Shown in pieces: positions 5,468-26,377 of a stretch of 64,000 nt of DNA; within the stretch, counting starts at the first letter, position 1, and the number at the start of each line of letters is the position of its first letter. Position numbers and translations under genes: made by a program. Location of the stretch: NCBI GenBank assembly GCA_021737785.1, contig JAIPDI010000005.1:62001-126000 (forward strand), given 5' to 3'. This stretch comes from Deltaproteobacteria bacterium. GTDB taxonomy: Bacteria; Desulfobacterota; DSM-4660; Desulfatiglandales; Desulfatiglandaceae. The notes under the pieces are model-generated. The model had not been told where the DNA came from. It did not search any database and was given only the letters and a program-made list of their open reading frames with translations.

Positions 5468-7030
5468 ATGATGCCTGTGCCGAGACCGTCTCCGGTGTCC
5501 CTTCGCAACCTCCTCCTTGCAGCTCTATCCGGCGTCCTGCTGACGCTTTCGTTTCCTCCCGGGAAGTTTTCATTCGTGGCATGGTTCGCCCTGGTCCCCC
5601 TCCTGAAGGGGATTCAAGGCACTTCTCCTTTCAATGCCTTTAAATTGGGGCTTGTTTCCGGTCTCGCCCATTTCTTGACCCTCATTTATTGGATCATCGT
5701 GGTGCTGGAGCACTACGGCAACCTCCATATCGTTATCGCCCTGATTGCCCTCATTCTCCTTTCCCTCTACCTCTCTCTCTATATGGCCCTTTTTTCCACA
5801 TTGGCATCCCGACTCACGGATACGGTTCTCTATTCCGTCATTCTGGGCGGATACTGGGTGGGCCTGGAATATCTCCAGACCCATCTGATGACCGGTTTTC
5901 CCTGGTGTCTTCTGGGATACAGCCAATATGAACACCTCCATATCATTCAACTGGCAGACCTTTTCGGGGTATACGGTATCTCCTTCCTCATTGTCTGTGT
6001 GAACGGCCTGATCTTCCGCATCTCCCTCAGGCCTCCCCGCCGAAACGGCAGGGTCCTCAAATGGGAACTTCCCGTTTCTGTCCTGCTCCTGGCAGGGGCA
6101 TGGGTATACGGCCTTTATCAGCTCTCCGAAGCCCGGACCGGGGAAGAGGGGGGCCGCCCGGTGAAGGCCGCGGTCGTACAGGCCAATATCGATCAGTCTG
6201 TCAAATGGGATCCCGCATACCAGGAGGAAACCCTGCAGCGCTATTACCGGCTCACCCGCGCTACCCGGTCTTTCCATCCCGAACTGATCGTGTGGCCGGA
6301 GACCTCCCTCCCCTTTTTCTTTCAGGACCATCCGAAATTTTCTCCGGGCATTGTATCCCTTGCAGAGGAGTCGGGGGCCGTCCTCATATTTGGAAGCCCT
6401 GCATACAGGCGGGACAAGAGGGCCGTTCGCTATTACAACCGGGCCTACATGATCGCACCGGAAAGCGGGGACATTCTGTATTACGACAAGATCCACCTGG
6501 TCCCCTTCGGGGAATATGTACCCTTGAAAAGATATCTCCCTTTTATCCATCGCCTGGTGGCGGCTGCCGGTGATTTTGCCCGGGGAGAGAAATCAGAGGC
6601 GCTCAAGACAGGGGATCTTTCCGTGGGGGTCCTGATATGCTTTGAGGCGATTTTTCCGCAGTTGGCCGGGGAGCTGACCAGAAACGGGGCCAATATCCTT
6701 GTAAACATTACCAACGATGCCTGGTTCGGCATGACCAGCGCCCCGTTTCAGCATCTGAGCATGGCCGTGTTCCGGGCGGTGGAAAACCGCAGACCCATGA
6801 TACGGGCCGCCAACACCGGCTTCAGCGCCTTGATCACCCCTACGGGCGTAATCCAATCCAAAAGTGATCTCTTTGTTGAAGCGGTCTTAAAAGATTCCAT
6901 AACCGCGGGGGCGTTTCCCTTGACTTTCTACAGCCGTTTTGGAGACCTGTTTGCGGTGACCCTCCTCATCATCTCCGCCGCACACATCATTTACCATATC
7001 CGGACAAGACGGAGACGGAAGGCTGGTTAA
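5468..7030 (+). CDS. lnt: Apolipoprotein N-acyltransferase
   Basis: Lnt transfers the third acyl chain to the N-terminal cysteine of lipoproteins in the inner membrane. The 520-residue protein starts with about six membrane segments (residues 15-215), followed by a periplasmic nitrilase-like domain. The catalytic triad is intact: Glu278 in VWPETSLPFFF, Lys341 in YYDKIHLVPFGEYVP and Cys391 in GVLICFEAIFPQL. A last membrane segment lies near residues 490-510 before a basic tail. Its substrates would include the lipoproteins at 38-47 kb in this window. It is coupled to corC. Confidence 0.96.
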   Translation: MMPVPRPSPVSLRNLLLAALSGVLLTLSFPPGKFSFVAWFALVPLLKGIQGTSPFNAFKLGLVSGLAHFLTLIYWIIVVLEHYGNLHIVIALIALILLSLYLSLYMALFSTLASRLTDTVLYSVILGGYWVGLEYLQTHLMTGFPWCLLGYSQYEHLHIIQLADLFGVYGISFLIVCVNGLIFRISLRPPRRNGRVLKWELPVSVLLLAGAWVYGLYQLSEARTGEEGGRPVKAAVVQANIDQSVKWDPAYQEETLQRYYRLTRATRSFHPELIVWPETSLPFFFQDHPKFSPGIVSLAEESGAVLIFGSPAYRRDKRAVRYYNRAYMIAPESGDILYYDKIHLVPFGEYVPLKRYLPFIHRLVAAAGDFARGEKSEALKTGDLSVGVLICFEAIFPQLAGELTRNGANILVNITNDAWFGMTSAPFQHLSMAVFRAVENRRPMIRAANTGFSALITPTGVIQSKSDLFVEAVLKDSITAGAFPLTFYSRFGDLFAVTLLIISAAHIIYHIRTRRRRKAG

Positions 7031-7440
7031 TCCGGATGCTGGATACTGGATGCTGGATAACGGACGCTGGACCTCAGACGCTGGGATGCTGAAATGCGGG
7101 CATGCGAAGAGGGTGGGGTTTCCGACCTCCGACCTCCGATGTCAGACCTCTGATCTTTGTTGCTGGATGTTAAGCTGGTAAGCTGATAAGCTGGTAAGAC
7201 GATGGCTGATGAGTCGCTGATGAGTCGCTGTGGGGTCAGCAGCTGATAGCTGATGGCTGATAGCTGGTGAGCTGGTGAGCTGGTGAGCTGATAAGCTGGT
7301 GAGACGATGGCTGACAAGTCGATAATCTCTCAATGGCTCAATCCCGCTTTCCAGCGGAACTCAATAAACCCAGCGAACCCAACGAACCCAATAAACCCAT
7401 AACCCCCTGACGCCTTGCGCCTAATGCCTTGTGCCTGATC
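7031..7440. repeat. Word-like tandem repeat tract
   Basis: No gene is seen in these 410 bases. The tract is built from degenerate short words: first GGATGCTGGATACTGG-type units, then GACCTCCGACCTCCGAT, then many GCTGATAAGCTGGTAAGCTG and GCTGGTGAGCTGGTGAGC units, then AATCCCGCTTTCCAGCGG and CCCAACGAACCCAATAAACC. The minus-strand ORFs here are translations of the repeat (SPAYQLTS-type) and are not real genes. Related tracts recur in at least eight other gaps in the window. Confidence 0.85.
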
Positions 7441-7441
7441 T

Positions 7442-8406
7442 ATGGACCAGAGCGAAAAAACAGGGTGTTCCATCCTTATTTTTCTGGCGGGCTACGAGAT
7501 TGTGCATACCGTATTTTTTGAAACCGCCCAACTGAATAGGGGAACACTCCCCTACGCCATGGCCGGTGTGCTTTTGACCATGGCCATCACATTTGCCTTC
7601 TCCCGCTATGAACTTGCTCAGGGAAAACAGATCGGCTCACCCAGCCTCATGGCCGACGCCCAGCATATTCGCACCGATATGCTCTCATCCGGGGTCATTT
7701 TAGCGGGTCTGCTAGTCTCGATACTTGGATGGGACTTAGATAAATTCGCGGCCCTTCTGGTGGTGGTCCTGATTGCAAAGGCGGCCATCGCCATCCTGGT
7801 GGACGCCCTTCGTGTGCTGCTGGACGCCTCCATCGATTTCAAGACAATGGACCAGGTCAAGACGATCATCATGATAAATCCAAGGTTGTCTCCATCAATG
7901 CACTCTGGGGGAGAAAGTCCGGCCCCTATAAATTCATCGAGGCCGCTATCGTTGTCCAGGCAGGGAGTCTGGAGAGGGCCCATTTTTTCATCAGCAAGAT
8001 TGATAAAGAAATCAGGGAAAAACTCTCCAATGTAGACCCCATCCTGATCCATTATGAACCCCGGAAAAAGGAGGTCATGACCTGCGCCATACGGCTGGGT
8101 GAAGACAAGGCGTCTCTGGCGGATCACTTCGGAAGCGCTCCCCATTTTTATGTGGCCTCCAAGAGGCAGAAAGACGGCGAACTCATCTCAGAGGCCTTTT
8201 ACCATAATCCGTTCAGAGAGGATGACAAGGGGAAAGGAATCAAGGTGAGCGAGTGGCTCCTCGAAAAGGGCGTTGACTGGGTCTATTCACCAAAGGAATT
8301 GAGCGGACGAGGCCCGGGCTATGTCTTCTCTGACGCAGGGGTTGAGGTCATGGTCACGGATCTGAAACGTCTTGAGGATATTCAAGAGGACTTTCAAAAG
8401 ACATAA
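7442..8406 (+). pseudogene. Cation diffusion facilitator/NifX-like fusion, broken
   Basis: The remnant begins inside a CDF metal transporter (SILIFLAGYEIVHTVFF, then a membrane core with LMADAQHIRTDMLSSGVIL, the conserved H-x3-D metal site). The first roughly 70-80 residues expected of the family are replaced by repeat DNA. Near 7880 the frame shifts: the true continuation (SKVVSINALWGRKSGPYKFIEAA) runs in frame 1 into the reading frame starting at 8077. The C-terminus (MTCAIRLGEDKASLADHFGSAPHF) is a dinitrogenase iron-molybdenum cofactor (NifX/NifB-type) domain, a fusion known in Desulfobacterota. Both 5' truncation and frameshift indicate a dead gene, unless a sequencing error explains the latter. 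Confidence 0.75.
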
Positions 8407-8604
8407 TGCACCGGAGAGATGAACTCTGGTTACCCCTTTCAAATCCATCGGTATCTCTTTTGCCCATGCCCCTAAATAAGAGTTTTATGACTCATTTTTT
8501 CGGGAGGGGTGGATACCTCCGCCATACCATTCTCCGGTGACGAGCCAAATTTCGCAGTAATAAAGCTATTCTGAGATTAAGGGGGGCGGGTAAAAGCAGA
8601 CGAT

Positions 8605-9405
8605 TTACCTCAAGCGATCCGGAACGCGATAGATGCTTTCCAACTCCGCCTTCACTTCGTCAAGGGTATGATCATTTCCAAAACCCTTACATCCTGTGGT
8701 CAGCGCATGTTTTTTTGATTTCGGATAATTTCTGCAGTGTGCAGGTTTGGTCTCATGGATCCGGCATTTATATGCGTCCTTTAGAGGCAGCTTCCGAAGC
8801 CATGGACATCGATCGACCTCTTCCCCTGTGTTTGGTCTGATCCAGAGGTCACCGAAGGCTTCCACGCCGTCAAAGTTGAAAATATCGACCCATCGCAGTA
8901 TGTCCCACCGTTTTTCCCTTTTCCATCGATTGATATCCTCAGTATCGACGCTCGTGCAAAAGGCGTCAGACAGATCCCGGCAGCAATGCCCGCATTGGAC
9001 GCATTGAAATTTTTCCATTTCCGTCTCAACATAAATGCCGGGTTCCCCATTACGCCCTTTCCCCGGCATCGCCTTCACCCACATGACCCATTCATAGATC
9101 GTTGCAATATCATCAAGTCTATCTTCCAGTTTCGGGATCATTGGAACAACATGACTTTTGAAGTCCCATTTAGCAATGAAATCGGCTCCTTCCATCCCCG
9201 GGCCCTGATGCCAGATCCCCGATTTCGTGAATTCTAACTCCTTCTCCTGGCAAGTGCTGGGCCAGGCTTCCTCTCCGGTCAAAAAGCCGTAAACTCTGGC
9301 AAACATCGCGAAATCAAGCCAGCCATTTGATGCTTCAACCAGATCCGCGAAGACCTTATGGATGGCTTCTTCGGCTGTATGGAATTGGATGTCTTTGTCG
9401 GCCAT
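8605..9405 (-). CDS. YkgJ-family cysteine-cluster protein at end of CBASS operon
   Basis: This 266-residue protein has a cysteine cluster typical of YkgJ (PF03692): C135-x2-C138-x2-C141-C142, then C200 and C214-x9-C224 (YKCRIHETKPAHCRNYP). The cluster probably binds zinc or an Fe-S centre; the function is unknown. The N-terminal 130 residues are not recognised. The frame is open to 9483, which would overlap cap3; the ATG at 9405 is preferred, 40 bases after the cap3 stop. No terminator separates it from cap3, so it is probably co-transcribed with the CBASS genes. It is not one of the standard CBASS components. Confidence 0.75.
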   Translation of the reverse strand: MADKDIQFHTAEEAIHKVFADLVEASNGWLDFAMFARVYGFLTGEEAWPSTCQEKELEFTKSGIWHQGPGMEGADFIAKWDFKSHVVPMIPKLEDRLDDIATIYEWVMWVKAMPGKGRNGEPGIYVETEMEKFQCVQCGHCCRDLSDAFCTSVDTEDINRWKREKRWDILRWVDIFNFDGVEAFGDLWIRPNTGEEVDRCPWLRKLPLKDAYKCRIHETKPAHCRNYPKSKKHALTTGCKGFGNDHTLDEVKAELESIYRVPDRLR

Positions 9406-9445
9406 AATGGGCTTGCCCCATCTTTTATTATCGATTTGATTTAGA

Positions 9446-9916
9446 TCATGAAACTGGCTGCAACCGGAGGATTTCATGACCATTGATCAATCCTACCCAT
9501 ATGTCAGAAGGTTTGTCCGACTGACCCACCACCACCATGAGAAAATAATTGAGTTCATGGTCCGATTTCAGAAAACATTCCTCCATCGAAGAGAAATCAA
9601 TGTGTGACGGAAAGGGTGGATGCTGAGGATGAGTGTGCCAGTCTCCCACATAGTGTAAGCCCTTTTTGAAATAGCGGTCGATCTCCCTTTGGATGCGGCG
9701 TTTGTTGAGAAACAGTGAAAACCGCCTCCTGGTATCGAGCTTGTCAGGGCCTGTCGATGCTAATATTGAGACAGTTTTCGGGGTGATGGTCGCAAAGAGT
9801 TGCCCCCCTACTTCCTTCCGGTGGGGTAACACTTGCCTCTTTTTTAAGAAATGATCCAAAACGTTGTCTGAGAACTGAATTTCTTGTCTTTTTTCTGGGA
9901 GAATAAAGGTTAGCAT
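9446..9916 (-). CDS. cap3: CBASS JAB/JAMM deconjugating protease Cap3
   Basis: Cap3 is the deubiquitinase-like metalloprotease of type II CBASS that removes the nucleotidyltransferase from its conjugates. The 156-residue product has a full JAMM motif: Glu35 (KEVGG), then H94-x-H96 followed by seven residues, Ser104 and Asp107 (GDWHTHPQHPPFPSHIDFSS). It starts 9 bases after cap2 and continues the operon order cap2-cap3. No clear ribosome binding site precedes it, so translational coupling to cap2 is likely. Confidence 0.92.
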   Translation of the reverse strand: MLTFILPEKRQEIQFSDNVLDHFLKKRQVLPHRKEVGGQLFATITPKTVSILASTGPDKLDTRRRFSLFLNKRRIQREIDRYFKKGLHYVGDWHTHPQHPPFPSHIDFSSMEECFLKSDHELNYFLMVVVGQSDKPSDIWVGLINGHEILRLQPVS

Positions 9917-9925
9917 AGCGGCGTC

Positions 9926-11749
9926 TCAATGGCTGTATCGGCAGGCTTCTTGAACTTTCCAATCTTTCGTAATGAAACGTTCCCCCTGCCCTATCGCACC
10001 ATAATACTTCTGGACTCCGTCAGCGAGCTTGCCCTCCATATCGGCTAATGAATTCAGGTTACCGATCCAGACCCTGTGTTGCGATTTTTTTATCTTTTCA
10101 AGCAGGATATCCAGCACAAGCCTGGCTATCATATTTTGTGTCGGTAAGATGTCGATAACACCATAGGGCTGATAGGTGACTCCACAAGCGGGAGGGCGTT
10201 TTGCAATCAAAGAATTACCCCATTCGGTGATTGCCCTGATGAAGGTACCATATGGATCCATCCCGCAAGAGAGGCATCCGCCAACCCCCATCGTTACCAG
10301 GGCATGTCCAACAATCCCATAAGGTTCGGTCCAACCGTACACGACCGGTGGAAAATCAGCATCTGCAATAGAAGCATGGTTCAAGGCGGACTCGGCATCC
10401 CAGTCCGCCACAGTCGAGACGATCACATCGCTTTTAAGCATGACAGGTGCATCATTGATATACACCTTCTGCCACGTCTTCGGCTCCGCTTGAATCTCAA
10501 TCATTCCCGGAAAGTGTTTTTCAATATGTGTCTTTAATGCAGTAGCCTTATATTGCCCGGCTTCGGCCCCGCCCAAAAGATGCCTCCCAATATTATCCCA
10601 GGACAGAATTTCATGGTCGATCAGAACCAGTTTTCCCACACCGTTTTGGGACAAGATCATGGCAACCTGCGCTCCCAGAGATCCGCATCCGATGAAGCAT
10701 ACCTTAGCATGTTTGATCTCGTCTTTAAGCCCATTGCCTCCTCGCTCAAATATCCAACCTGAATCTATACGTTGAACCATTGCAGGCTCTGTCTTGCCAT
10801 CAACTCCAAAAAAACGATTCTTAAGTTGAATAGTCCCTCCCGATTTTTTGCGAAATCCGTTGAATCTCGGATAGTTTCTCTTTTTAGGGGAGACCTGCCG
10901 AATAGGTTCATTGAGTTTTAAATAGCCTAACGCCGGTCCGTTGCCCGATTCAAAGCCGAAGATGAGATCCACATGACCCGGCTCGACGGGAACAAGACTG
11001 CGAAAGATGTCGAAACCCGCTTTACTTCTCTTCTGTACCAGTGACACGACATCCGAATTATTCCTCGGATACTCATCAGGCTTGAGCGAGGATTCCAGCC
11101 ACAAGAAACCCGCATCCCGGAAGTCTTCCTCCCCCGGCTCCGATTTCCAACCCGCATCCTTCAGCCATTTTTTTGCTGCGGAGACGGAATCGCAGATCAA
11201 AACGGTTTCTTTTGATGAGACGCAATACACCATCCGTGATGGAGGGTCCGGCTGTCCAAAAAAGAGGACACTGAATTGTGCCCCATTCCTTTGATCGCAC
11301 CAGTACTTCCAGTAACTTTGAAATTCAGAGGAAAAATCCTGTTCGTTCTGTCCTTTCAGGTTCTCCTGAATGAGATTTTCAGCCTCCCTCAGGTAATATT
11401 CAACGAGTCCGCTTCCTGTTTGGTGGACCAGAGAATCATCCTGCTGCCGGAGGCACAATAATCCCCCTTTTTCAAAATGCGGCCATTTAAGAAACCATTT
11501 TTTGTCGGCAAGGCCCACTCTGGGGGGAGAGAACGGAGTCAAACCGTCAAGAAGAATATTTACCCTGAAATCTTGATCCGATGTCCTGATCCGTGTCTGC
11601 CAGCCTGCTATGAAATCCGTGTCTTTGTAGCCTGCCAGGTCTCTTCCGGTCAGGGGCCTGACTTTCGGATCTTTTGAGATCAGAAAACAGGCCGTGGCCT
11701 CAATGGTTTCACGGGCTATCACGGGAAAGAGCCCCGCCATTTTACCCAA
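9926..11749 (-). CDS. cap2: CBASS E2-E1 fusion Cap2
   Basis: Cap2 primes type II CBASS by ubiquitin-like conjugation of the CD-NTase C-terminus. The 607-residue protein has an N-terminal E2-like domain with a candidate catalytic Cys99 (EKGGLLCLRQ). A middle linker region follows. The C-terminal ThiF/E1 domain has the nucleotide-binding motif FIGCGSLGA (352-360), the acidic strand LVLIDHEILSWDNIGRH, and Cys522 in RPPACGVTYQP as candidate E1 cysteine; C492 and C495 form a CxxC. The start is either TTG 11749, which overlaps the cdn stop and has GGGGAG at good spacing, or ATG 11740. Confidence 0.93.
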   Translation of the reverse strand: MGKMAGLFPVIARETIEATACFLISKDPKVRPLTGRDLAGYKDTDFIAGWQTRIRTSDQDFRVNILLDGLTPFSPPRVGLADKKWFLKWPHFEKGGLLCLRQQDDSLVHQTGSGLVEYYLREAENLIQENLKGQNEQDFSSEFQSYWKYWCDQRNGAQFSVLFFGQPDPPSRMVYCVSSKETVLICDSVSAAKKWLKDAGWKSEPGEEDFRDAGFLWLESSLKPDEYPRNNSDVVSLVQKRSKAGFDIFRSLVPVEPGHVDLIFGFESGNGPALGYLKLNEPIRQVSPKKRNYPRFNGFRKKSGGTIQLKNRFFGVDGKTEPAMVQRIDSGWIFERGGNGLKDEIKHAKVCFIGCGSLGAQVAMILSQNGVGKLVLIDHEILSWDNIGRHLLGGAEAGQYKATALKTHIEKHFPGMIEIQAEPKTWQKVYINDAPVMLKSDVIVSTVADWDAESALNHASIADADFPPVVYGWTEPYGIVGHALVTMGVGGCLSCGMDPYGTFIRAITEWGNSLIAKRPPACGVTYQPYGVIDILPTQNMIARLVLDILLEKIKKSQHRVWIGNLNSLADMEGKLADGVQKYYGAIGQGERFITKDWKVQEACRYSH

Positions 11750-12749
11750 ATCGACTCCCCCCTCTTTTCCGGACCGGCTCCCTGGGTTCCTTATCGGCTA
11801 TGGTGATGGCCATTGCCGCGGAATTCTCCAGAAGATCCGAGAAGAACGAATGATTGAAAAACCCTTTCCAGGCCTTGAGTGCAGTCTGCCTAGTACACTG
11901 AGCATCGTGCAGGACTGAAAGATTATTCAGGGCCTGCTCCAGCCTTGTCTCCATCTCGTTAACGGACGCTTCTTTCCCTTCACTGATGAGGGTATTTTCA
12001 AGGACGGGGTGCTGAACATCCTTGCTCCAGAAAAGCCTTTCTTTGATTTTCTCTATGGTTTCATAAAGCGCCCGGTCATCCCGGTCCTTTGTGGAAATAT
12101 AACACTCATCCACCAATTTTGAGATGATGAAACCTGTCGGCATATTCCAGGAGTCCCGACTTTTGGCCCAGAATTTCAACAAACGGACAATCCGCCGCAT
12201 CTGTCGGCCGTTTGTCTCATCCGGGCTCTGGTCTATGACGGCATTGTTGAACCAGTTCGTAACCGCCTCCGGATCCGATTCAATCCAATCGTTCCCTGCA
12301 AGTTCGATTTTCGTTTCATCCCAATCATCTTCAAATTGTCTGTAGACGGGCATATCCACGTGGTGGCCCTCGTTATAATACACGCGGACACAGTTCTGCC
12401 TTACCTCCGAGGGCGTTTTGAAATGGCTGTCTTGAACGGCATCGCAGACCATTTTTCGGGCCTCAAAGGCCGTCTTATCACCACCTTGTGGTCCCTGAAG
12501 GTCCGCTTTCCCAAAGACCACGCCGACGTCAATGTCATAATCGTTCCTTGGATGCTGGTTGATGGTCCTCATGGCGTAAGACCCCTGGTTGATGTGACGT
12601 AAAGGCAATGGGTTTTCATTCTTCTTCAAGCCGGTTTCCACCCGCCCCTTATTGGCTTCTCTATAATCAGCAAGCTTGCTGACCTGGGCCGCTGAGAGCC
12701 TTACGTGTTTCCTGTAAAAATCCATTATCTCTGAAGAACAATCGTACAT
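11742..12749 (-). CDS. cdnA: CBASS DncV-like CD-NTase
   Basis: CD-NTases make the cyclic nucleotide alarm signal of CBASS after phage infection. The 335-residue protein carries the polymerase-beta-type active site: GSYAM at 56-60, Asp72 and Asp74 in DYDIDVGVVF, and a third acidic residue Asp132 in HHVDMPVY. Overall pattern resembles DncV (clade A), which would suggest cGAMP as product, but the product cannot be read from sequence. ATG 12749 is chosen because AGGGAGG lies 6 bases upstream; the open frame extends to 12815. The chain ends in SRFG, and a C-terminal glycine fits the known attachment site for Cap2-mediated conjugation. It overlaps cap2 by 8 bases. Confidence 0.93.
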   Translation of the reverse strand: MYDCSSEIMDFYRKHVRLSAAQVSKLADYREANKGRVETGLKKNENPLPLRHINQGSYAMRTINQHPRNDYDIDVGVVFGKADLQGPQGGDKTAFEARKMVCDAVQDSHFKTPSEVRQNCVRVYYNEGHHVDMPVYRQFEDDWDETKIELAGNDWIESDPEAVTNWFNNAVIDQSPDETNGRQMRRIVRLLKFWAKSRDSWNMPTGFIISKLVDECYISTKDRDDRALYETIEKIKERLFWSKDVQHPVLENTLISEGKEASVNEMETRLEQALNNLSVLHDAQCTRQTALKAWKGFFNHSFFSDLLENSAAMAITIADKEPREPVRKRGGSRFG

Positions 12750-12823
12750 GATGCCTCCCTTTTTCATTGTGTTCAGATGAAATCCATCCTCCAAAAACAT
12801 CAAGAAGCCCTTCAATGGGAAAA

Positions 12824-13942
12824 TCAGGGCGTTTCCCTTGGAAGAACCGAAAGATTTGAAAAGATTTCTCTAATGGGGACCAATTCCCCAGGGTCGTCCC
12901 TCATCGCTTTGCTGTGAATGCGGTCAGCGTCGGCCTCCGCAAGGGATAGCAATGTGCGGACCGCGACTTCATCTGCCCTGTCCAGGCCAATGGCACTGTA
13001 ATGTTCCGGTGATTTTTTGGGCTCTTCCAGGCGCATGACTTTGATATTGCGGCCTGCCCGTTTAAGATATCCGGCCAGCATACGGGCCATAAATCCATAG
13101 CCAGACGATTGTGCAGACATGGCCATTTCTAGGATGCCTATGCCCACCTTCCATTCCTTGAGCCCCCAATCGGCGTTTTTCAAAAGATTCGGGTCCCCTG
13201 TGGGCTGGTCGCAGGTCCCCGCGGAAACCAGTTCAATCGGGGTATTCTCCCCGGTCATCCCCAGCGCCTCTATCAGGCCGACCATGACGGGATTGTTGGC
13301 CCAAAGTCCACCGTCCACGAAATGCTGGACATTGTGAGAGTCATCAGGGTTTAGAACACGGGCCAGCGGGAAGAAAATCGGCGCCGCGGTACTCGCCAGA
13401 CATACATCCACCAGTCTATAACGATCATCACGGTGTTTGCCTTCCAGGTGGCTGGTCTTGATCACGCGGGCCTGGTGATTGATGGCCTTCACCGCAGGGA
13501 TACAAAGGGCAATGTGCCTTTTTTCGTAGACATCCTGTATGGTCATTTCTCCAAAGGTCCCCTCCAAAGCCTCTCGAAATGCTTCAACGACCGCAGCAGG
13601 TTTTTTCCGATACCGGAAACACCACCTGAGGACACCTTTTCTTTTTGGTGAAGGATCAGGGAAGATTTCGAGGCCTTTTCGGATATAAAAATCACGGATC
13701 TTTCCCAGAGGGACACCCGCTGCCAGGCCGCAGGCCAAGATGGCGCCCGTGCTCGTACCACATATCAGTTGGAAGGCGTTCCCGATATCCGGTTCCTCTT
13801 CTCCAAATCGCACGTCAAATCGCCGGGAAAGGGTGGAGAACAAAGAGGCGGTGTAAAGCCCCCTCATGCCACCTCCGTCGATGCAGAGAACTCGGAAAGG
13901 CGTGTTTGCGTTTTCTTGGGAAAAGGCAGGTTGCTCGAACAT
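12824..13942 (-). CDS. capV: CBASS patatin-like phospholipase effector CapV
   Basis: CapV-type effectors are phospholipases that destroy the inner membrane when they bind the CBASS nucleotide. The 372-residue protein has the patatin fold motifs: oxyanion segment DGGGMRG (22-28), nucleophile Ser64 in GTSTG, and the dyad aspartate Asp210 in VDGGLWANNPV. The start is ATG 13942 (MFEQPAF), with AAGGAT about 9 bases upstream, rather than the upstream open frame to 13993. It is the first gene of the operon capV-cdn-cap2-cap3, which matches the gene order of the Vibrio cholerae system. A sigma54-type promoter lies 57 bases upstream. Confidence 0.93.
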   Translation of the reverse strand: MFEQPAFSQENANTPFRVLCIDGGGMRGLYTASLFSTLSRRFDVRFGEEEPDIGNAFQLICGTSTGAILACGLAAGVPLGKIRDFYIRKGLEIFPDPSPKRKGVLRWCFRYRKKPAAVVEAFREALEGTFGEMTIQDVYEKRHIALCIPAVKAINHQARVIKTSHLEGKHRDDRYRLVDVCLASTAAPIFFPLARVLNPDDSHNVQHFVDGGLWANNPVMVGLIEALGMTGENTPIELVSAGTCDQPTGDPNLLKNADWGLKEWKVGIGILEMAMSAQSSGYGFMARMLAGYLKRAGRNIKVMRLEEPKKSPEHYSAIGLDRADEVAVRTLLSLAEADADRIHSKAMRDDPGELVPIREIFSNLSVLPRETP

Positions 13943-13998
13943 AATGCTAATCCTTAAATAAATTATTTTTTGTTTTGAGAAGGCTACTAACACTTAAT

Positions 13999-14734: not shown

Positions 14735-15103
14735 TCAATAAGGAGGAATGTCGTGACACCTTCTTTCCGACTCTAATCTTAATACGGTTTCATCGTCGCG
14801 CAATGCTAGTGCAACCCAATTGCTGCTGATGAATGAGAACATCCTATATTCAATAGGATTCCATTTGGAAGAACCGGGCGGATAATGACAGACTTTCACC
14901 TGAAGACCAAAGCGATTGCAGAATCCCATGTGCAGCTGATGTTTCCACATACGGGTGCGGTAGCCATTGCTCCCGCCGCAATCGGCGAGGATGAGTAGGC
15001 GGTCGGCATTTGGATAGTGGTTCGATCCCGCGCGTGACCACCAGGTACGCATAGAATCAACGGCAAATTCAAAGGTATCACGTGTGGTACTTATGTTGTT
15101 AGA
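14735..15103 (-). pseudogene. ISAzo13-type transposase, C-terminal remnant
   Basis: The translation FAVDSMRTWWS, then LLILADCGGSNGYRTRMWK and HYPPGSSKWNPIEYRMFSFISSNW matches the DDE catalytic half of ISAzo13-family transposases. This includes the Asp before the glycine-rich GGSNG and the Glu in the WNPIEYR segment. The match begins around 15103 and ends at a stop near the degenerate C-terminus. The N-terminal half is found separately at 15452-15843 on the same strand. The roughly 350 bases between them (15104-15451) are AT-rich and show no recognisable coding. Confidence 0.7.
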
Positions 15104-15900: not shown

Positions 15901-16866
15901 TTAGAGTACATGGGTTGATATGCATCCGATAGAATAGCTGCTGAGGAGTTTTCTCGCCTCTTCCGGTTTCTGGTAGTTGACATAGGCGTCACGACATCTA
16001 TGCGTGTTTTCATCAAGGAAATCCAAACCTCGATCTACATCGAGGGCAATTTGGTCTGTCAGGATAAACCTCTGATGAGGCAAGGTCGGCCGGGGCAATG
16101 ACTCATCATAAAAATGCACTTCGACCGCTGTCTTGGATAAAGGCCCCTTCTTGAATGAGCGAATCTCCTCTATTACGAAGTTTATCCCATGACCTTTGGG
16201 TTGACCCATATGAAAGATGATTCTGCAATTCCCTGGATCGAGTAAGACGCCGCCCAACCAACCCATGAGCTGCCTGATGGTATAGCGAAAATTTTGCGTA
16301 AGGTTCTTATTGCCGCAAACGCGGTCACAGATGTGAACCGTTTCGGCATGTTTAAGGGCTTTTGCGAAATGGAATTCCACAAAACCTGCCTCGTCCATTT
16401 CACCCTTACTACAGGTCTTTCCGTAGACGGCAAGGTCTGAACGTCTCGGCTCAAATGCCGTTTGCTGATAGGAACGCCGCGTTGCGATTTCAATCCCTTC
16501 CGGCGCGGAACGATTACTTTCAGATGCGATCACCAATATAAGATCCAAAAGAATCGTTTTCGCTTGCTCAAAAACACAGCCGAGATCCGACTGCTCACCC
16601 ATATAATCAGGAGAGATACTATACAGAAATCGTTTACGTTTTTTAAACCGGACCAAGATCTTTTTGACGTTACTACGGGTCATGGTTTCCGGCCAAATCT
16701 CCAGTTTTTCTTTTACGGACTCACCCCAGCGGTCGTCTTCAAAAACGGCGAGGAAACAATTCTGGAGGAGTCCGCTCAGGACCGCTAAAAGATGTTGAGC
16801 TGCGTCTTCCCCGTCTTCCGCGGCCTCTTCAAACATCTCTGGTTGGAGGAAAACATAAAAGTACAT
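15901..16866 (-). CDS. Unrecognised protein, possible PLD-like nuclease, paired with DUF3696 ATPase
   Basis: This 321-residue protein is not confidently recognised. Near the C-terminus H264-x-R266 is followed by RGLDFLD (residues 279-285). This spacing resembles the conserved segment of PLD-like MIT_C domains, so a nuclease role is possible but tentative. The N-terminus is acidic (EEAAEDGEDAAQ). There is no signal peptide or membrane segment. It starts 2 bases after the stop of the ATPase gene, so the pair is almost certainly translated together as the last two genes of the type I restriction operon. An ATPase sensor plus effector arrangement is inferred. Confidence 0.7.
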   Translation of the reverse strand: MYFYVFLQPEMFEEAAEDGEDAAQHLLAVLSGLLQNCFLAVFEDDRWGESVKEKLEIWPETMTRSNVKKILVRFKKRKRFLYSISPDYMGEQSDLGCVFEQAKTILLDLILVIASESNRSAPEGIEIATRRSYQQTAFEPRRSDLAVYGKTCSKGEMDEAGFVEFHFAKALKHAETVHICDRVCGNKNLTQNFRYTIRQLMGWLGGVLLDPGNCRIIFHMGQPKGHGINFVIEEIRSFKKGPLSKTAVEVHFYDESLPRPTLPHQRFILTDQIALDVDRGLDFLDENTHRCRDAYVNYQKPEEARKLLSSYSIGCISTHVL

Positions 16867-16868
16867 GG

Positions 16869-18539
16869 TCAGAAAAGCTCCTCAAAATCCTCTTCGAAAA
16901 ATCCACCAGGCCATTCTTTAACCAAATCACCTCTCTTATTTAATGGCATTTCGTGAATAATGCTACGAGATCCAACCGGTTCGACGAATAAAACCATAAC
17001 ATCCTCAGGACGGACAGATGGAAGCCCATTCGGCAGTTTACCTGAGGTGGTTTCACGCATCCGTCGCATAACCCGCAAGAGCAGATGCTCACTGTGGGTT
17101 TCCAGCAGAAAGGTGTTGTCGTTGCCTGCCAGGGCGGACTCGATGAACACGTCTCCAAGCTCGGCCTGAAGAGCCGGGTGAAGGTGTATCTCCGGCTGCT
17201 CGATGGCTATGATCTTTTCCCGGGAGGCATAGGCCGAGACTAAAATGGGCAGGACCTGGCTTATGCCGATACCGACATCGCGCTGAGAAACTTGTGTATC
17301 TGTGCGGCGGTCCAGAAGGACCAGTTCCTGGATGCTTGCGAGGTTTGTTTCTTTCTTCTTGATCTCGTCTAGGGCGGAGTAAAGTGTTCCAAACAGATCT
17401 CCATAAACCCCTTCTTCGGTATTGCCGCCGAGTCTGTCATGGTCTCCGTCAACATGGGCCCGTTCGATTTGCTCAACGATTTCTTGATAATCAGTATCCA
17501 AGTCATCTATGGTCAGAAGGTTTTTGATAGAAAGTTCATAAGGGGTGCTAAGTTTTTTAGTGTCACAGAGCCAGGAGTTGACCTTGTCGCGAACTTCCTT
17601 GTTGCGGCGGACAACGTCCCAGGCATAACCACCCCCGGCATACCAGTTGATGTCTTCATGCTCGGCAAAAGCGAAGTGCCGGGCCGGGTAGGAGCGAAGC
17701 GGTCCCAGGTACTGGAGTCGGTTGATCTCCAAGCGGAGCACGCTGTTCAACTTCTCAATAAGTTCGTCAAGCGTGCGCGGGAGAAAAATGCGAAGGGCTT
17801 TTGCAAGGTCCTCCTGCCGGTAACCTTTGCTGACAGGGAAAAATCCCGGCGGCTTTGTTGAATCACCTTCTTCCTCCCGACTGCGGTCCTTGAGCCCCTT
17901 TGGAAAGAATGCACCCATGGAAGCGCGCAGACCGGCGATGATACCCTCAATCGGTTTCTCCAGGGCAGAGAGGTCTTCTTCTGATACTGTCCCGGTGGTT
18001 GTATGGATTTCAATGAGGGCGCTGATGATACGCCGAAGCACGGGGTGCTTATATGGCAAGAGATCAAGGGCCATCTGATTACCCGGCCTTCTGCTCATGC
18101 GGAGCAAAGTGCTGCCGTCACTCTCAAGTTCATAGGAAATGACATGGGGCACGGCGCCTGGCAGAGGCTCGTCCTGGTCGTCAAGGGGCATGCCTGTGGT
18201 GATGTTTACGGTGATTTCGCCTACCGGTTTCAGAAGTTCCTTGAGCCTCCCGGTAAATTTCTTCGTTCTCAGAGTCATGCCCCATTCCATTCGGCGATTG
18301 GCCTGACGGCGATGAATGTACTGTCGGAAACCGCCCAGATCAATGGAACTGCCACCCAGGTCGGTGCGGAAAAGATCCAGTTCACCAGTGCGCATGGCCT
18401 CATGGGCCAGGGCCAGGCTGTGGATGATGCTGGACTTGCCGGCACTGTTGGCCCCGAAGATCAGAGTGATTGGCTTGATCGGGATGTTCTGGGCTTCAGC
18501 AAAGGCCTTAAAGTTCCCAAGGCGAAGAGCTGTGATCAT
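16869..18539 (-). CDS. AAA-family ATPase with DUF3696 C-terminus
   Basis: The 556-residue protein is an SMC/OLD-like ATPase. The Walker A is GANSAGKSS (29-37) directly after ITALRLGNFKAF. The ABC-type signature region is VSQRDVGIGISQVLP. The Walker B is IIAIEQPEIHLHPALQAEL, followed by the D-loop and a switch histidine (LLETHSEHLLLR). The last 45 residues (VMVLFVEPVGSRSIIHEMPL) match the DUF3696 domain. A ribosome binding site AGGAG precedes the ATG. It lies 11 bases after hsdS and 2 bases before the next gene. Such ATPases are common in multi-gene defence systems, but the role here is unknown. Confidence 0.88.
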   Translation of the reverse strand: MITALRLGNFKAFAEAQNIPIKPITLIFGANSAGKSSIIHSLALAHEAMRTGELDLFRTDLGGSSIDLGGFRQYIHRRQANRRMEWGMTLRTKKFTGRLKELLKPVGEITVNITTGMPLDDQDEPLPGAVPHVISYELESDGSTLLRMSRRPGNQMALDLLPYKHPVLRRIISALIEIHTTTGTVSEEDLSALEKPIEGIIAGLRASMGAFFPKGLKDRSREEEGDSTKPPGFFPVSKGYRQEDLAKALRIFLPRTLDELIEKLNSVLRLEINRLQYLGPLRSYPARHFAFAEHEDINWYAGGGYAWDVVRRNKEVRDKVNSWLCDTKKLSTPYELSIKNLLTIDDLDTDYQEIVEQIERAHVDGDHDRLGGNTEEGVYGDLFGTLYSALDEIKKKETNLASIQELVLLDRRTDTQVSQRDVGIGISQVLPILVSAYASREKIIAIEQPEIHLHPALQAELGDVFIESALAGNDNTFLLETHSEHLLLRVMRRMRETTSGKLPNGLPSVRPEDVMVLFVEPVGSRSIIHEMPLNKRGDLVKEWPGGFFEEDFEELF

Positions 18540-18550
18540 TTTTCTTTCTC

Positions 18551-19792
18551 CTATACGGCCAATGCCTTGGCCTGGACTTCCATTTCCTGTAGGAGTTCTT
18601 TCATGTGCGCTTTACGCCAGGAGGCGGTGAGTTCGCCGGTGAAGGCGCGGTGTAAAATTGAGTTGAAGAGAATTTCCTGCCTTGCACAGCATGTTCTCAT
18701 CCTTTCTCGATTCGTATCCAATTGGGTTAGGACTGCTGAAAATTTCTGTTGCAAAGGCAATGGCGGACACAGAACCGATAAAATAGAATATTCTTTCCCA
18801 TTAATGTTTGGTTGCCCACCAACCCGCTTTCGAGCAGCAACCCAACTCTTGTAATAGTTTGTCTGAGTGAGTGCGAATAAAAAAGCAGGTTCCATCTTCT
18901 TAGTGTCTGGCTTGAACCGAATCAAATAACCAGCATAAGCGCAAAGACCGTCTTTATTCCGATAGAGGTATGTCTTGCCAACCGTATTACCACTTCGTGC
19001 AAATAACAAATCTCCTTTGACCAATTGGTATTGTTCCCAATTTTCGAGACTAAGTGAAACGACTCCATTTGGAGAAAGTTGACCATTTTCTAATATGTCA
19101 GTAATACGCACATATCTTGGCTTGCCTTCTTTCCATTCAACTGCGCTTGCATTAGCTCCATATTCTGGCTTATCAATGCAGACCTTAATTAGTGGCTTTT
19201 GCGGCCATCTCATTGGATTCGTGGTGGGATCGCCAAACATCTTGATGAACAAGACGGGGAGGATGCGCTCGGCTTTTTTGTCCGCCTCGACGCGCAGTTT
19301 GCGCAACCGCTCCGCCTGGTCGAGGATCTCCACAATCCGCTGTTGCTCTGATGGAGGAGGAAGGGTTAATACTAAATTAGCAATATCCTTTCTGGTTATT
19401 CCTTTTATCGTTGCCCCCCGCTGTGCAGAAAGAAGTGTGGCCATTTTATTCTTAATTGCAGCAACAACATAATTTGTATCAATGCCATTTTTAAGAATAA
19501 TTCCTGTTATATCCTGGCTGACAGCAGTGTCTTCTTGAGCGATAGCGATTTTCCCCACACCTGTACGGGTAACCATGATAATCGAACCTTTCGGTACGAT
19601 ATTAGTCGCGCTGTTATTTAGTGCATCTTGATTTATATGGCGCCTTCCAAGAATGATTTCTCCGTCAGTAAAATCAGCACCGGTAATCCATGGAATATCC
19701 CCACTCCAATAAGGTTCAACTTTGGTATTGGGCGTTCCTCCACTTATGAATTTTTCAGCGAGGTTTGAGAGTTTGAACTCAGGCCACTTCAT
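18551..19792 (-). CDS. hsdS: Type I restriction specificity subunit HsdS
   Basis: HsdS selects the DNA target of the HsdM/HsdR complex. The 413-residue protein has the standard two halves. The first target recognition domain is residues 1-145 (FISGGTPNTKVEPYWSGDIPWITGADF), then a helical spacer (LPPPSEQQRIVEILDQAERLRKLRVEAD). The second is about 195-355 (YVRITDILENGQLSP, KGDLLFARSGNTVGK), then the distal conserved region (PPLPLQQKFSAVLTQLD). It overlaps hsdM by 4 bases (ATGA). The target sequence cannot be predicted from this alone. Confidence 0.94.
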   Translation of the reverse strand: MKWPEFKLSNLAEKFISGGTPNTKVEPYWSGDIPWITGADFTDGEIILGRRHINQDALNNSATNIVPKGSIIMVTRTGVGKIAIAQEDTAVSQDITGIILKNGIDTNYVVAAIKNKMATLLSAQRGATIKGITRKDIANLVLTLPPPSEQQRIVEILDQAERLRKLRVEADKKAERILPVLFIKMFGDPTTNPMRWPQKPLIKVCIDKPEYGANASAVEWKEGKPRYVRITDILENGQLSPNGVVSLSLENWEQYQLVKGDLLFARSGNTVGKTYLYRNKDGLCAYAGYLIRFKPDTKKMEPAFLFALTQTNYYKSWVAARKRVGGQPNINGKEYSILSVLCPPLPLQQKFSAVLTQLDTNRERMRTCCARQEILFNSILHRAFTGELTASWRKAHMKELLQEMEVQAKALAV

Positions 19793-21441
19793 ACTACCGC
19801 CTCCACGTCTTTGAGCAGCTTCTCCAGCCCTTCCGTAATATCCTGCTCAATCGCAAGCACATCCTTGATCAGATCTGCTGGGTTTTCGTCTGGCACATCT
19901 TCTGCGATCTGCGGCTTGTAATGGCTGACGCTAAGATTATACTCGGCTGCTTCGATCAGATCGTATTCGGCCCACCAGCATTTCGGCTCGTCCGAACCGG
20001 GCGGCAACATACCATTAGCTTTTTCACCTGGCAGTTTCTGAAAACTAGACTCCTTATACTCACCCCAAGCCGCAAGCAGGCCGGGGATTTCATTCTTCCC
20101 AGGGGTCTCGAGCCGGCCGCCGCCCTGGATTTTGTCCGGGTCGTAGCCGTCGTTCTTCAACTCGTAGAACCAAACCTTACTGGTTGCAGCCTGCCCCTTT
20201 TTTGGCTCGGCTACCGGTTTCCGGAAAACCAGCACTGAGGTCTTAACCCCGGCATAGGGCTTGAACACCCCGGCCGGAAGGGACACCACGGCCATCATTT
20301 CAAAATCATTTACCAGCTTTTTACGTAAATCCTTGTGCGCGCCTGTGGAGCCGAAAAGCGCCCCTTCCGGCACCACGACTGCGCAGCGCCCGCCAGGAGC
20401 CAGAGACTCCATCATCAGGGCCAGAAAAAGCAATTCGCTTTTTTTAGAACTGGTAGGCAGATCGTGACGGATGGAATCCTTGGGCAGCACTCCGGCAAAG
20501 GGCGGATTAGAGAGTATCACCTTATAGCGTCGGTTCAGGTCCTCCTCTGTAAGACCACCCATTTCGGAAAGGACATTCGCCCTTTTCAGCCTTGCCTTGC
20601 CGATGCCGTGCAGAACCAGGTTCATCATAGAGATCCGCATCATTTGCCGGGAAACATCGGTGCCGTAGATGGAGGCCTCCAGCAGCCCCCAGTCCGGGAT
20701 CTTTTCACCGGCCCCTTTTCGGTAGGTCTGGAGGTTGGGCATCTCCTTTCTCACCTCGGCCAGAGTCTGCTTTCTCTTCTCCAGCCAGTCCTCACCGTAG
20801 ATCGGCAGTTCCTGAGGGGTTTCGCTGTATTTGGCCAGCAGGTAATCCACCGTGTCGATCAGAAAACCGGCGGTGCCGCAGGCCGGGTCAAAAATCGTAT
20901 CTCCAATATCCGGATCGGTCATGGCCACCATGAAGGCCCGGATTTGCTTGGGGGTCCGGAACTGGCCGTTCAGGGCGGACTGGCCGAGATGGGTCAGCAG
21001 GTATTCAAAGATGTCGCCTTTGACATCCGGCCCCAGTTTGCGAAAATCAATGGTATCCAGCTCATCCACCACCTGCTTCAAAACATTGGGGTCCATGATC
21101 TCAAGGACCGCGTCCCGGAAATACTCAGCCACCTGGGGCTCGTCCTTGACCAGGGAGGCCATGTAGGGAAAAACCTCGTCGCGGATAAAGTCGCGCAGCT
21201 TGTTTCCGCTGTAAAATCGCCACTTCATCCAGCGGAAGCGTTCCGCCTGGTCGGGAAAGAGCAGCTTGCCGTTGCCGGCCTTGAGGCGGGCACGCAGTTC
21301 GCGGTTGTTCTCCTCCTCATCAAGGAGTTTCAGATAAATGAGATAGGATATCTGCTCAATGTAAGTGACCGGGTTGGTCACCCCGCCCGCCCAAAGGATA
21401 TCGGTGATGCGGCTGAGCTTTCGTCTTATTTCCTGGTCCAT
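19789..21441 (-). CDS. hsdM: Type I restriction-modification methyltransferase HsdM
   Basis: HsdM methylates adenine in the site recognised by HsdS. The 550-residue protein has an N-terminal helical HsdM_N domain, an AdoMet-binding motif DPACGTAGF (185-193) and the catalytic NPPF (312-315, ILSNPPFAGVLP), which marks an N6-adenine enzyme. AAGGAAAG precedes the ATG. It starts 12 bases after hsdR. Gene order hsdR-hsdM-hsdS on one transcript means that methylase and nuclease are induced together if the promoter before hsdR is the only one. Confidence 0.95.
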   Translation of the reverse strand: MDQEIRRKLSRITDILWAGGVTNPVTYIEQISYLIYLKLLDEEENNRELRARLKAGNGKLLFPDQAERFRWMKWRFYSGNKLRDFIRDEVFPYMASLVKDEPQVAEYFRDAVLEIMDPNVLKQVVDELDTIDFRKLGPDVKGDIFEYLLTHLGQSALNGQFRTPKQIRAFMVAMTDPDIGDTIFDPACGTAGFLIDTVDYLLAKYSETPQELPIYGEDWLEKRKQTLAEVRKEMPNLQTYRKGAGEKIPDWGLLEASIYGTDVSRQMMRISMMNLVLHGIGKARLKRANVLSEMGGLTEEDLNRRYKVILSNPPFAGVLPKDSIRHDLPTSSKKSELLFLALMMESLAPGGRCAVVVPEGALFGSTGAHKDLRKKLVNDFEMMAVVSLPAGVFKPYAGVKTSVLVFRKPVAEPKKGQAATSKVWFYELKNDGYDPDKIQGGGRLETPGKNEIPGLLAAWGEYKESSFQKLPGEKANGMLPPGSDEPKCWWAEYDLIEAAEYNLSVSHYKPQIAEDVPDENPADLIKDVLAIEQDITEGLEKLLKDVEAVV

Positions 21442-21453
21442 GTTTTTCTTTCC

Positions 21454-23751
21454 TTATGTGTTTGCCGCCTTGCTGAAAACGCTTTTGTTGAGATCATCCA
21501 CTATTTCCTGTAAACCCTGCTCGCCGAACAGCTCGATTCCGATACCTGCGGCATTGAGAATGGAAAGCGGCGGCTTGAACAGGTCGTCCAGCTGCACCTT
21601 GCCGGTGGCAATGCCGCGGTTCTTGAGCAGGGAGAGATACTCGGCCTGTTCCGGGGCCAGGGATTTTGCCACCAGCCAGGCCCGGAAAAGTTCTTCGAGT
21701 TTTTCGTCACGGCCCTGAATTTTGAGAAGACCAAGGGCGGCCTTGATAAAATCGATCAGGTTTCCCATTGGATTTTTATATGCCCTGCGAAGGTTTTCCT
21801 CATTAAAGTAAAGCTTAGGGTTGTTGAGCCGGTTGGACAGCTCCTCTTCCTCATCATCGGAGAGCGGTTCGTCTTTTTTCACCTTCTCTATGATCGGGTC
21901 ATCGGCGCTCATTTCCCAGATGGTCTTTTCCCAGGTGGTCTGGTATTCCTTCTTGTCGATTCTTTCGCCTTCCGGACCGACCTCGACATAACTGAGCGCT
22001 TCGAGCCACTCATCATCAACGCCAAGTTCGACAAGCTCCTTGGGTTCCGGTTTGCCGCCGGAGCCGCCCGGCGCCGTGCCCCCCTTGGCGCCACCGGTAA
22101 AGACATCGGCATCCGAATCATTCCAACGCTTATGGTTGTTAAAAAAATCATAGATGATGAATTTCTTTTTTTCTATGTGCGGAGCGGTGCGGGTACCCCT
22201 GCCTCGCATTTGCTGGTAGAGAATGGGGCTCATCACCCGGCGGCACATGACGAGGTGAAGGATTTCCCGGCAGTCAAATCCGGTGTCGAGCATACCGACA
22301 CTGACCGCCACCATGGGGTATGTCTCCTTCTTGAACCGGCGGATCAGGGCGTCGGGATCAGCTACATCCGATGTGATCACCACGGCGTAATTGCCCTTGT
22401 GCTCAGGGTGGAGTTCATTGAGGTATTGGGCCAGGCGGGCGGCATGGTGCTTGGTGATGGCAAAGACCACCACCTTGCCGGGGCCGACCTTCTGGCCCGG
22501 GGCAAGTTCCTGATAAGACTCCCAGGCTAAGCGGTCAAACTCCTCTATCATCAACCGGTTGGTCTTTTCATTGGTCCATTGATGCTCGAATTTGGCCGGA
22601 TCATAATGCTCCTCGTCAACGTCCACTCCTTCAGCGATCACCTCGGTAATGCCTGTGGCAAACTTGTATGGAGATAGAAAACCGGCGGCAAAGGCATCCT
22701 GTATCCGGTAAGAGAAATCAGGCTGGCCGGCCTTGCAGTGATAAAATTCGTAGGTGTTGCGGTCGATGTAGCTAGCCGGTGTGGCGGTAAGGCCGATATG
22801 CAGGGCGTCAAAGCGGGTCAGTGACGCCTGCCAGGCCCCATATATGGAACGGTGACTTTCATCCATGATCACCACGTCGAAATAGCCGCTGGTGTATTCA
22901 TGGGTTCGGTTTATCATGGTCTGCAGGAGGCAGACGGTGATCTGCTTTTCCTGGCGGATCATGCCGGGTTTCAGCCAGTAACTGCCATATTGACCGCCGA
23001 GAAGATCCTGGATCGTCTCAAGGGCCTGTTTTGCGAGTTGCTCCCTGTCAACCAGGAAGAGGATACGCTCAGCCCATCCCGCCTCAATAAGTCTTTTTAT
23101 GTAAAGGGCGGTCAGGTCGGTTTTCCCGGTACCGGTGGGCAGTTCCATTAGAAAGCGCCGTTTACCAAGCTCAAGGGCCTGGTCAAGCGCCCGCATGGCT
23201 TCCTGTTGGTAAGGCCGAAAGGTGCGGGTCTCGCCCTGGCGAATGTAATAATCGGGGATCTCCACCGTAGCCAGGGGTTTTCGGTTCTTGCGGGATTCAA
23301 CCAATCGCTCCATGTCCCGCCGTGAATAAAAAGAGGCGACAATTCTGGCATCGTCGTTCTGATAGTCCCAGAAATAGATCAAGTCGCCGTTGGTCAGAAA
23401 GATGAAAGGTGCGCTAAGCTCCTGGGCATAGGGCAGGGCCTGCTGTTTGGCCACATAAGGATTGATGGCGTTCTTCTTGGCCTCGATGACTGCCAACGCG
23501 CGACCTTTGCTGTCCCGCAGCACATAATCAGCCCGACCGGAAATATGCTTTTTTACCTCGTCTGGTTTTTCTTTGTGACCATAATGTCCCATGGACTCTG
23601 CAACCTTCAAACCGGCAAAAAAACTTTCGTCGGCCTGCTGAATATAAAACTCAGTCAGCACTTGGGACTTGTCTGAAGGATCCCATCTGGCCTCCTTGAG
23701 CAAGTCATCTATGAGTATCCTGGCGTCAGCTTCTGTGGTCTGTGTGCTCAT
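21454..23751 (-). CDS. hsdR: Type I restriction endonuclease subunit HsdR
   Basis: HsdR is the translocating nuclease of the type I complex. From ATG 23751 it has 765 residues. The PD-(D/E)xK nuclease domain is N-terminal (Asp75, Glu90, Lys92 in ADYVLRD and AVIEAKK). Then comes a superfamily 2 helicase core with Walker A PTGTGKTD (205-212) and DESH (297-300), and a C-terminal domain of the EcoEI type. The frame is open to 23796, but that stretch contains the sigma54 promoter; ATG 23751 has AAGGGTG about 6 bases upstream and matches family N-termini. The gene is the first target of the activator encoded just upstream. Confidence 0.94.
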   Translation of the reverse strand: MSTQTTEADARILIDDLLKEARWDPSDKSQVLTEFYIQQADESFFAGLKVAESMGHYGHKEKPDEVKKHISGRADYVLRDSKGRALAVIEAKKNAINPYVAKQQALPYAQELSAPFIFLTNGDLIYFWDYQNDDARIVASFYSRRDMERLVESRKNRKPLATVEIPDYYIRQGETRTFRPYQQEAMRALDQALELGKRRFLMELPTGTGKTDLTALYIKRLIEAGWAERILFLVDREQLAKQALETIQDLLGGQYGSYWLKPGMIRQEKQITVCLLQTMINRTHEYTSGYFDVVIMDESHRSIYGAWQASLTRFDALHIGLTATPASYIDRNTYEFYHCKAGQPDFSYRIQDAFAAGFLSPYKFATGITEVIAEGVDVDEEHYDPAKFEHQWTNEKTNRLMIEEFDRLAWESYQELAPGQKVGPGKVVVFAITKHHAARLAQYLNELHPEHKGNYAVVITSDVADPDALIRRFKKETYPMVAVSVGMLDTGFDCREILHLVMCRRVMSPILYQQMRGRGTRTAPHIEKKKFIIYDFFNNHKRWNDSDADVFTGGAKGGTAPGGSGGKPEPKELVELGVDDEWLEALSYVEVGPEGERIDKKEYQTTWEKTIWEMSADDPIIEKVKKDEPLSDDEEEELSNRLNNPKLYFNEENLRRAYKNPMGNLIDFIKAALGLLKIQGRDEKLEELFRAWLVAKSLAPEQAEYLSLLKNRGIATGKVQLDDLFKPPLSILNAAGIGIELFGEQGLQEIVDDLNKSVFSKAANT

Positions 23752-23779
23752 TGTTTCACCCTTCATGCCGGCATGTAAA

Positions 23780-23795
23780 AGCAACGACCGTGCCA
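23780..23795 (-). promoter_or_regulatory. Sigma54 (-24/-12) promoter of the type I restriction operon
   Basis: On the minus strand TGGCACGGTCGTTGCT is a perfect match to the RpoN consensus TGGCACG-N4-TTGCW. It begins 4 bases after the stop of a sigma54-dependent activator gene and ends 28 bases before the hsdR ATG. The predicted start is near 23769, giving a leader of about 17 bases that holds the AAGGGTG ribosome site. A palindrome CATGCCGGCATG (23764-23775) lies over the start point. Position and quality make this the strongest regulatory site in the window. Confidence 0.85.
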
Positions 23796-23798
23796 AAC

Positions 23799-25307: not shown

Positions 25308-25436
25308 GGCCTCCTTGATACAAAATTCTTTGTAATATTGCAAGGATTCTTATAATGGAGCATCGATGGTTGGACGGCCTTATTATTATGCCCAGGTATT
25401 CAGCAGGACATGTTTAAGAGCAGGCCTATGTAAAAG

Positions 25437-26360: not shown

Positions 26361-26377
26361 GATTTCAGCCCTCCTAT

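Follow-up and report, generated by a model that had tools for sequence, protein, structure and literature searches.

On the minus strand of a 64,000-nucleotide stretch of a deltaproteobacterial contig, called the window hereafter, four adjacent genes form a complete type II CBASS, with the CD-NTase, the effector, the E1-E2 protein and the JAB protein all together. In order of transcription these are capV, encoding a patatin-like phospholipase effector (12824–13993; NF041079 at 222.3 bits, above the cut-off of 200), the gene of a DncV-like CD-NTase (11742–12815; NF041078 at 135.4 bits, below the cut-off of 150), cap2, encoding an E1-E2 fusion (9926–11749), and cap3, encoding a JAB/JAMM isopeptidase (9446–9916). 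All four have Pfam and PADLOC matches, the PADLOC models being those for the cyclase, the E1-E2, the JAB and the phospholipase-effector proteins, and cap3 was further identified by NCBIfam searches and motifs. Inspection of three of the proteins found HxH..SxxD in Cap3, GS..DxD and a C-terminal Gly in the CD-NTase and GxSxG in CapV. The type II passage of a published review names four genes, DncV, CapV, Cap2 and Cap3 (PMC10419184); the window operon has all of them but carries an extra gene, of the YkgJ type.

This extra gene follows cap3 on the same strand. It likely spans 8605–9405 (stop codon 8605–8607) and encodes 266 aa starting at ATG 9405, the position at which its relatives start in an alignment of 16 members. 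The whole open frame is 8605–9483 (292 aa), and a possible N-terminal extension from the in-frame ATG at 9483 (9406–9483) would overlap cap3 and finds no support among the relatives. The initial annotation had given the gene as 8605–9446, where no reading frame exists; its spacing of 40 bases behind cap3 was correct, as 40 bases separate the cap3 stop (9446) from ATG 9405. It had also described the junction as lacking a terminator, and a simple scan indeed lists no minus-strand promoter-like or terminator-like site between cap3 and the YkgJ-type gene, which is weak evidence because its total of 8 terminator-like sites hardly exceeds the 7.9 expected after shuffling.

The C-terminal part of the protein matches PF03692, the CxxCxxCC/YkgJ family of putative zinc- or iron-chelating domains, with 28.6 bits (E 2.3e-6; curated cut-off 23), which together with the CxxCxxCC motif bears out the family first proposed. 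This cysteine-cluster part (residues 135–242; 8680–9003) contains CxxCxxCC followed by further conserved cysteines in CPWL, C.IH..KP.HC and C.GF. It was initially read as a seven-cysteine pattern; the cluster is there, but eight cysteines, at residues 135, 138, 141, 142, 200, 214, 224 and 239, are invariant among the 16 aligned members of its subfamily (form B, defined below), out of ten cysteines in all when counted from ATG 9405. Unlike the PF03692 family, the window protein carries about 130 extra residues at its N-terminus (residues 1–130; 9016–9405), which had been called unrecognised; no Pfam model matches them, but they can be aligned across the subfamily within the phylum and are moderately conserved among the 16 members. 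Searches with the whole protein gave no NCBIfam match up to E 1, no reliable PDB relative (best E 0.002), no match in PHROGs and zero PADLOC matches at E 0.01, and a structure model built from three sequences reached a mean pLDDT of 44.1.

With regard to base composition, G+C/GC3 is 0.493/0.539 for ykgJ, 0.459/0.522 for cap3 and 0.488/0.515 for cap2, unlike the seven flanking genes at 0.516–0.596/0.609–0.714, while the CD-NTase gene (0.493/0.598) and capV (0.528/0.572) are intermediate. By this likeness, ykgJ looks as if it had arrived together with cap2 and cap3. Its place as fifth gene, the 40-bp gap without a visible terminator and the shared composition speak for a lineage-specific CBASS accessory, possibly an Fe-S protein sensing redox or modifying the CD-NTase or CapV, for example by methylating lysines that Cap2 would use. 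We nevertheless regard such a role as improbable in view of how YkgJ and CBASS are distributed, described in the following.

At E 0.001, 10 of 85 genomes of the window's class hold a YkgJ relative; in another class of the phylum, 117 of 389 do so at E 1e-15. They fall into three forms, for which we coined the labels A, B and C: form A has a diverged N-terminal part, form B includes the window protein and form C consists of the cysteine part alone (~116 aa). As judged by sequence comparison, a Desulfobacterota subfamily of two-part YkgJ proteins, made of an N-terminal extension and a cysteine part, is marked out. Two of the relatives score close to the PF03692 cut-off, L013 above it (23.3) and L014 just below it (22.4). 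The closest relatives of the window protein, at 53–63% identity, are those of G807, G628 (twice), G558 and G572, and in a tree of 28 proteins it shares a clade (support 100/99) with G558, G807 and both copies of G628, standing on a long end branch that is among those of which the tree builder warned. Viral contigs and plasmids searched with the single window protein gave no match; an alignment query returned one relative of the cysteine part on a viral contig (L130, 7986–8753), which scores 18.2 against PF03692 and so misses the cut-off, and a scan of genome contigs with two peptide patterns returned only two already known relatives. Form B also shows decay, with fragments in L021, L106, L107 and L125. 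In L105 (G546; 6936–9438), a form-B ykgJ is apparently split by a 556-aa ORF, presumably a transposase, while intact relatives exist elsewhere.

The neighbours of form B were read at 22 loci holding 23 copies or fragments outside the window, chosen by identity and length (40 places of the 389-genome search were read, the remaining ones being mostly weaker). CD-NTase and Cap2/E2 profiles (33 and 24 sequences), which could miss other kinds of CBASS cyclase, were run against all 22 loci together with BLAST queries from two CBASS. CBASS lies beside one of the 23 copies (L014, in G036); the other 22 are without CBASS in the stretch examined, although a CBASS neighbour may be unseen in L092, L093, L094, L096, L097 and L101, where the contig is short or breaks off close to ykgJ. 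Outside L014, the only profile match in these loci is E1-like, a lone 251-aa protein in L103. No CBASS match was seen in four further loci with fragments that have no form assignment (L122, L123, L124 and L129), nor in the flanks of the nearest relatives (G807, G628 twice, G558 and G572); G628 holds a form-B pair and, on a different contig, a DncV-like CD-NTase with an E2. The L093 copy rests on a tblastn match and was missed by the simple ORF caller. The genes upstream of form-B ykgJ differ from place to place: a PIN-domain gene 9 bp away (L090), the gene of a 347-aa protein lacking a Pfam match 78 bp away (L091, in G628) and the gene of a DUF6880 protein overlapping ykgJ by 4 bp (L094), and several other copies stand at long gaps from their upstream neighbour.

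For the converse view, starting from CBASS, DncV-like cyclases scoring above the cut-off were located in 5 of the 85 genomes of the window's class and in 19 of the 389 of the other class. Twenty-four cyclase loci (L157–L180) and three reached via Cap2 (L050–L052) make up 27 CD-NTase loci outside the window and G036, and the YkgJ profile matched in 0 of these 27, of which four (L157, L160, L168 and L174) can be followed for less than 1 kb past their final CBASS gene, L157 not at all. A cysteine-pattern search of the 24 cyclase loci found no YkgJ either, and no profile match was obtained in L053, with its CD-NTase-like and Cap2-like genes, or in the four plasmid CBASS loci that were read out of 249 plasmid records matching Cap2. 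In L170, which holds the nearest relative of the window CBASS (CD-NTase 60%, CapV 52%, Cap2 38%, Cap3 46%), the operon ends at cap3 and the next gene is on the opposite strand, so YkgJ is not kept there. In the literature collection searched, nothing linked the YkgJ family to CBASS or phage defence, and none of our findings ties the protein to the CBASS cycle.

The one recurrence, in G036 (L014, 3323–8710), consists of an HNH-SAVED effector, a CD-NTase and an E2, followed by YkgJ and then by a phage-integrase-family gene. As in the window, a subfamily-B ykgJ lies downstream on the same strand; unlike in the window, the effector is HNH-SAVED, the E2 comes without E1, the E2 gene and ykgJ are 594 bp apart with no same-strand ORF of at least 70 aa called in between, and the YkgJ protein is of another clade, grouping with G017, G518 and G511 (support 100/98 in the same tree). 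The two proteins encoded beside CBASS thus belong to different well-supported clades, each of which also holds copies remote from CBASS. L174 carries the closest relative of the CBASS in G036 (effector 74%, CD-NTase 79%, E2 77%). DNA similarity between L014 and L174 breaks off 22 bp ahead of the stop codon of the E2 gene; as just 623 bp of L174 are visible there, a ykgJ gene could lie further on. By a rough calculation, with CBASS in 24 of 474 genomes and with four neighbour slots and 4000 genes assumed, a set of 22 copies would include at least one beside CBASS with a probability of 0.001 if there is no island bias, rising to 0.011, 0.033 and 0.11 if the bias is 10-fold, 30-fold and 100-fold. 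Pure chance is therefore an unlikely source of the G036 adjacency, though less so if form B is biased towards islands, as it seems to be.

This apparent bias is read from the PADLOC matches of the neighbouring genes. At 1e-15, the 113 neighbours of form B matched 200 PADLOC families and the 117 of forms A and C matched 46, a difference that is a hint and not a rate because the matched families are redundant models rather than independent genes. The form-B scan covered 113 of 114 proteins (one 2882-aa ORF was left out) from 18 of the 22 loci (all except L021, L096, L107 and L125), and for the control 20 selected loci of forms A and C supplied 117 of their 133 proteins, the other 16 having been dropped by eye as overlong or questionable ORFs. 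Among the matches listed for form B are CBASS, type I-C Cas proteins, a type I methyltransferase, dCTPase, PtuA, RtcR-CARF and DpdF, and among those listed for the control are mad2, mad3 and candidate-system matches. As a hint only, defence-rich regions seem to harbour form B more often than its sister forms. Perhaps, then, the subfamily by itself protects against phages or repairs damage and gathers near many defence systems. We find this rather unlikely, as the redundancy of the families and the defence matches in the control weaken the contrast, neither PADLOC nor PHROGs matches the YkgJ protein itself, and several copies lie beside genes that we take to be of the housekeeping kind (comEC/murA in L095 and L096, MoxR/DUF58 in L105 and L107). 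Two of the loci also contain restriction-modification genes: in L102, the form-B ykgJ (9154–9900) is near HsdR-, HsdM- and HsdS-like genes, a PtuA-like ATPase and a PDC-M01B-like protein, and L100 has HsdM- and HsdS-like genes nearby. The L102 ykgJ is also near genes that look like cysteine synthase and serine acetyltransferase, and presumably genes of a similar kind, at 25437–27352, border the window's island.

We consider it likely that the YkgJ gene is a passenger and not a part of CBASS, mobile, often decayed and found in variable, often defence-rich regions, because its relatives lie nearly always elsewhere and related operons seem to be without it. The separation of the two is seen from both sides, with 22 of 23 other copies away from CBASS and none at the 27 other CD-NTase loci, and the absence at L170 and the 594-bp gap in G036 further argue against an accessory. 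Absence of recurrence, together with independent transcription of the gene, had been named at the outset as the outcome that would speak against a CBASS component; YkgJ is largely absent beside CBASS, with G036 as the single exception, which falls short of a full refutation. What stands of the proposed fifth gene of the operon is thus its position, by strand, gap and composition, and not a function in CBASS, and of the two roles suggested for it, accessory factor or passenger, the second is favoured. The tight spacing, the cap2/cap3-like composition and the second adjacency in G036 count against the passenger and in favour of the accessory. Form-B members sit in many places, often as fragments, settling in variable and frequently defence-rich regions; if the gene is indeed a passenger, one copy would have landed directly behind cap3. 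There it would probably be transcribed by read-through from the CBASS operon, with no promoter or terminator visible between them. Its distribution suggests that it would be dispensable for the CBASS cycle, namely cyclic-nucleotide synthesis, conjugation by Cap2, removal by Cap3 and activation of CapV. A tight 3′ neighbour, in other words, need not be a CBASS component, YkgJ and CBASS mostly travelling apart.

As to what the protein may do, a metal or Fe-S role is plausible, and the eight invariant cysteines would most likely bind a [4Fe-4S] cluster or another metal, the window protein being probably a [4Fe-4S] protein by analogy with the flagellin lysine methyltransferase FliB. In FliB, an oxygen-sensitive [4Fe-4S] cluster is reported to be needed for methyl transfer, and the authors liken its motif to PF03692 (PMC8598068). 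FliB has eight conserved cysteines as form-B YkgJ does; compared by the published motif only, it differs in having CX4CX3CC against CX2CX2CC in the window protein, and its substrate is flagellin (PMC8598068). YkgJ would most likely be, like FliB, a small redox-sensitive enzyme that modifies proteins or handles metal. A bolder extension, which we hold to be very improbable, is that subfamily-B YkgJ could be a shared [4Fe-4S] module of defence islands whose targets, under reducing (anaerobic) conditions, are proteins of the host or of phages, and that CBASS has captured it here to control the cyclase or conjugation in a redox-dependent way.

The surroundings of the operon suggested two further linkages, neither of which found support. 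At 15901–25343 on the minus strand lies a type I restriction-modification island led by a CARF-AAA-HTH (RtcR_PspF2) sigma-54 regulator, in the order RtcR, HsdR, HsdM, HsdS, an AAA ATPase and a 321-aa protein without match. RtcR stands at the far end of the window's same-strand island and is related (63%) to the RtcR of L091 (G628), where RtcR, a TPR protein, the 347-aa protein and YkgJ stand in a row. A linked RtcR-YkgJ system was rejected, with YkgJ in 0 of 10 further RtcR loci (the L209 and L212 contigs being only 5.1 and 6.6 kb long), while HsdR- or HsdM-like genes are near RtcR in 7 of the 10. The link of RtcR-type regulators with restriction-modification systems is already published (PMC4012209).

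The second linkage concerned a resident gene beside lnt. In G037 (L018), a form-A relative adjoins lnt, and the left-hand neighbour in the window is presumably lnt as well (the housekeeping names lnt, corC and nusA are our assumption from the sequence). A resident origin is not supported, because the tree separates the window protein from form A and the window's own genome holds its form-A copy (L012) on another contig; the contigs of G024 and G023, from the same genus, stop within ~400 bp of lnt and so show no empty site. A gene matching PF02579 (8077–8406) is next to a cation-efflux gene (7442–8035, plus strand) that looks truncated, as its PF01545 match covers only positions 75–198 of the 198 in the profile. 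Between the CBASS and the restriction-modification genes, a transposase fragment (DDE_Tnp_ISAZ013; 14735–15052, minus strand) lies in a stretch of low G+C (0.43).
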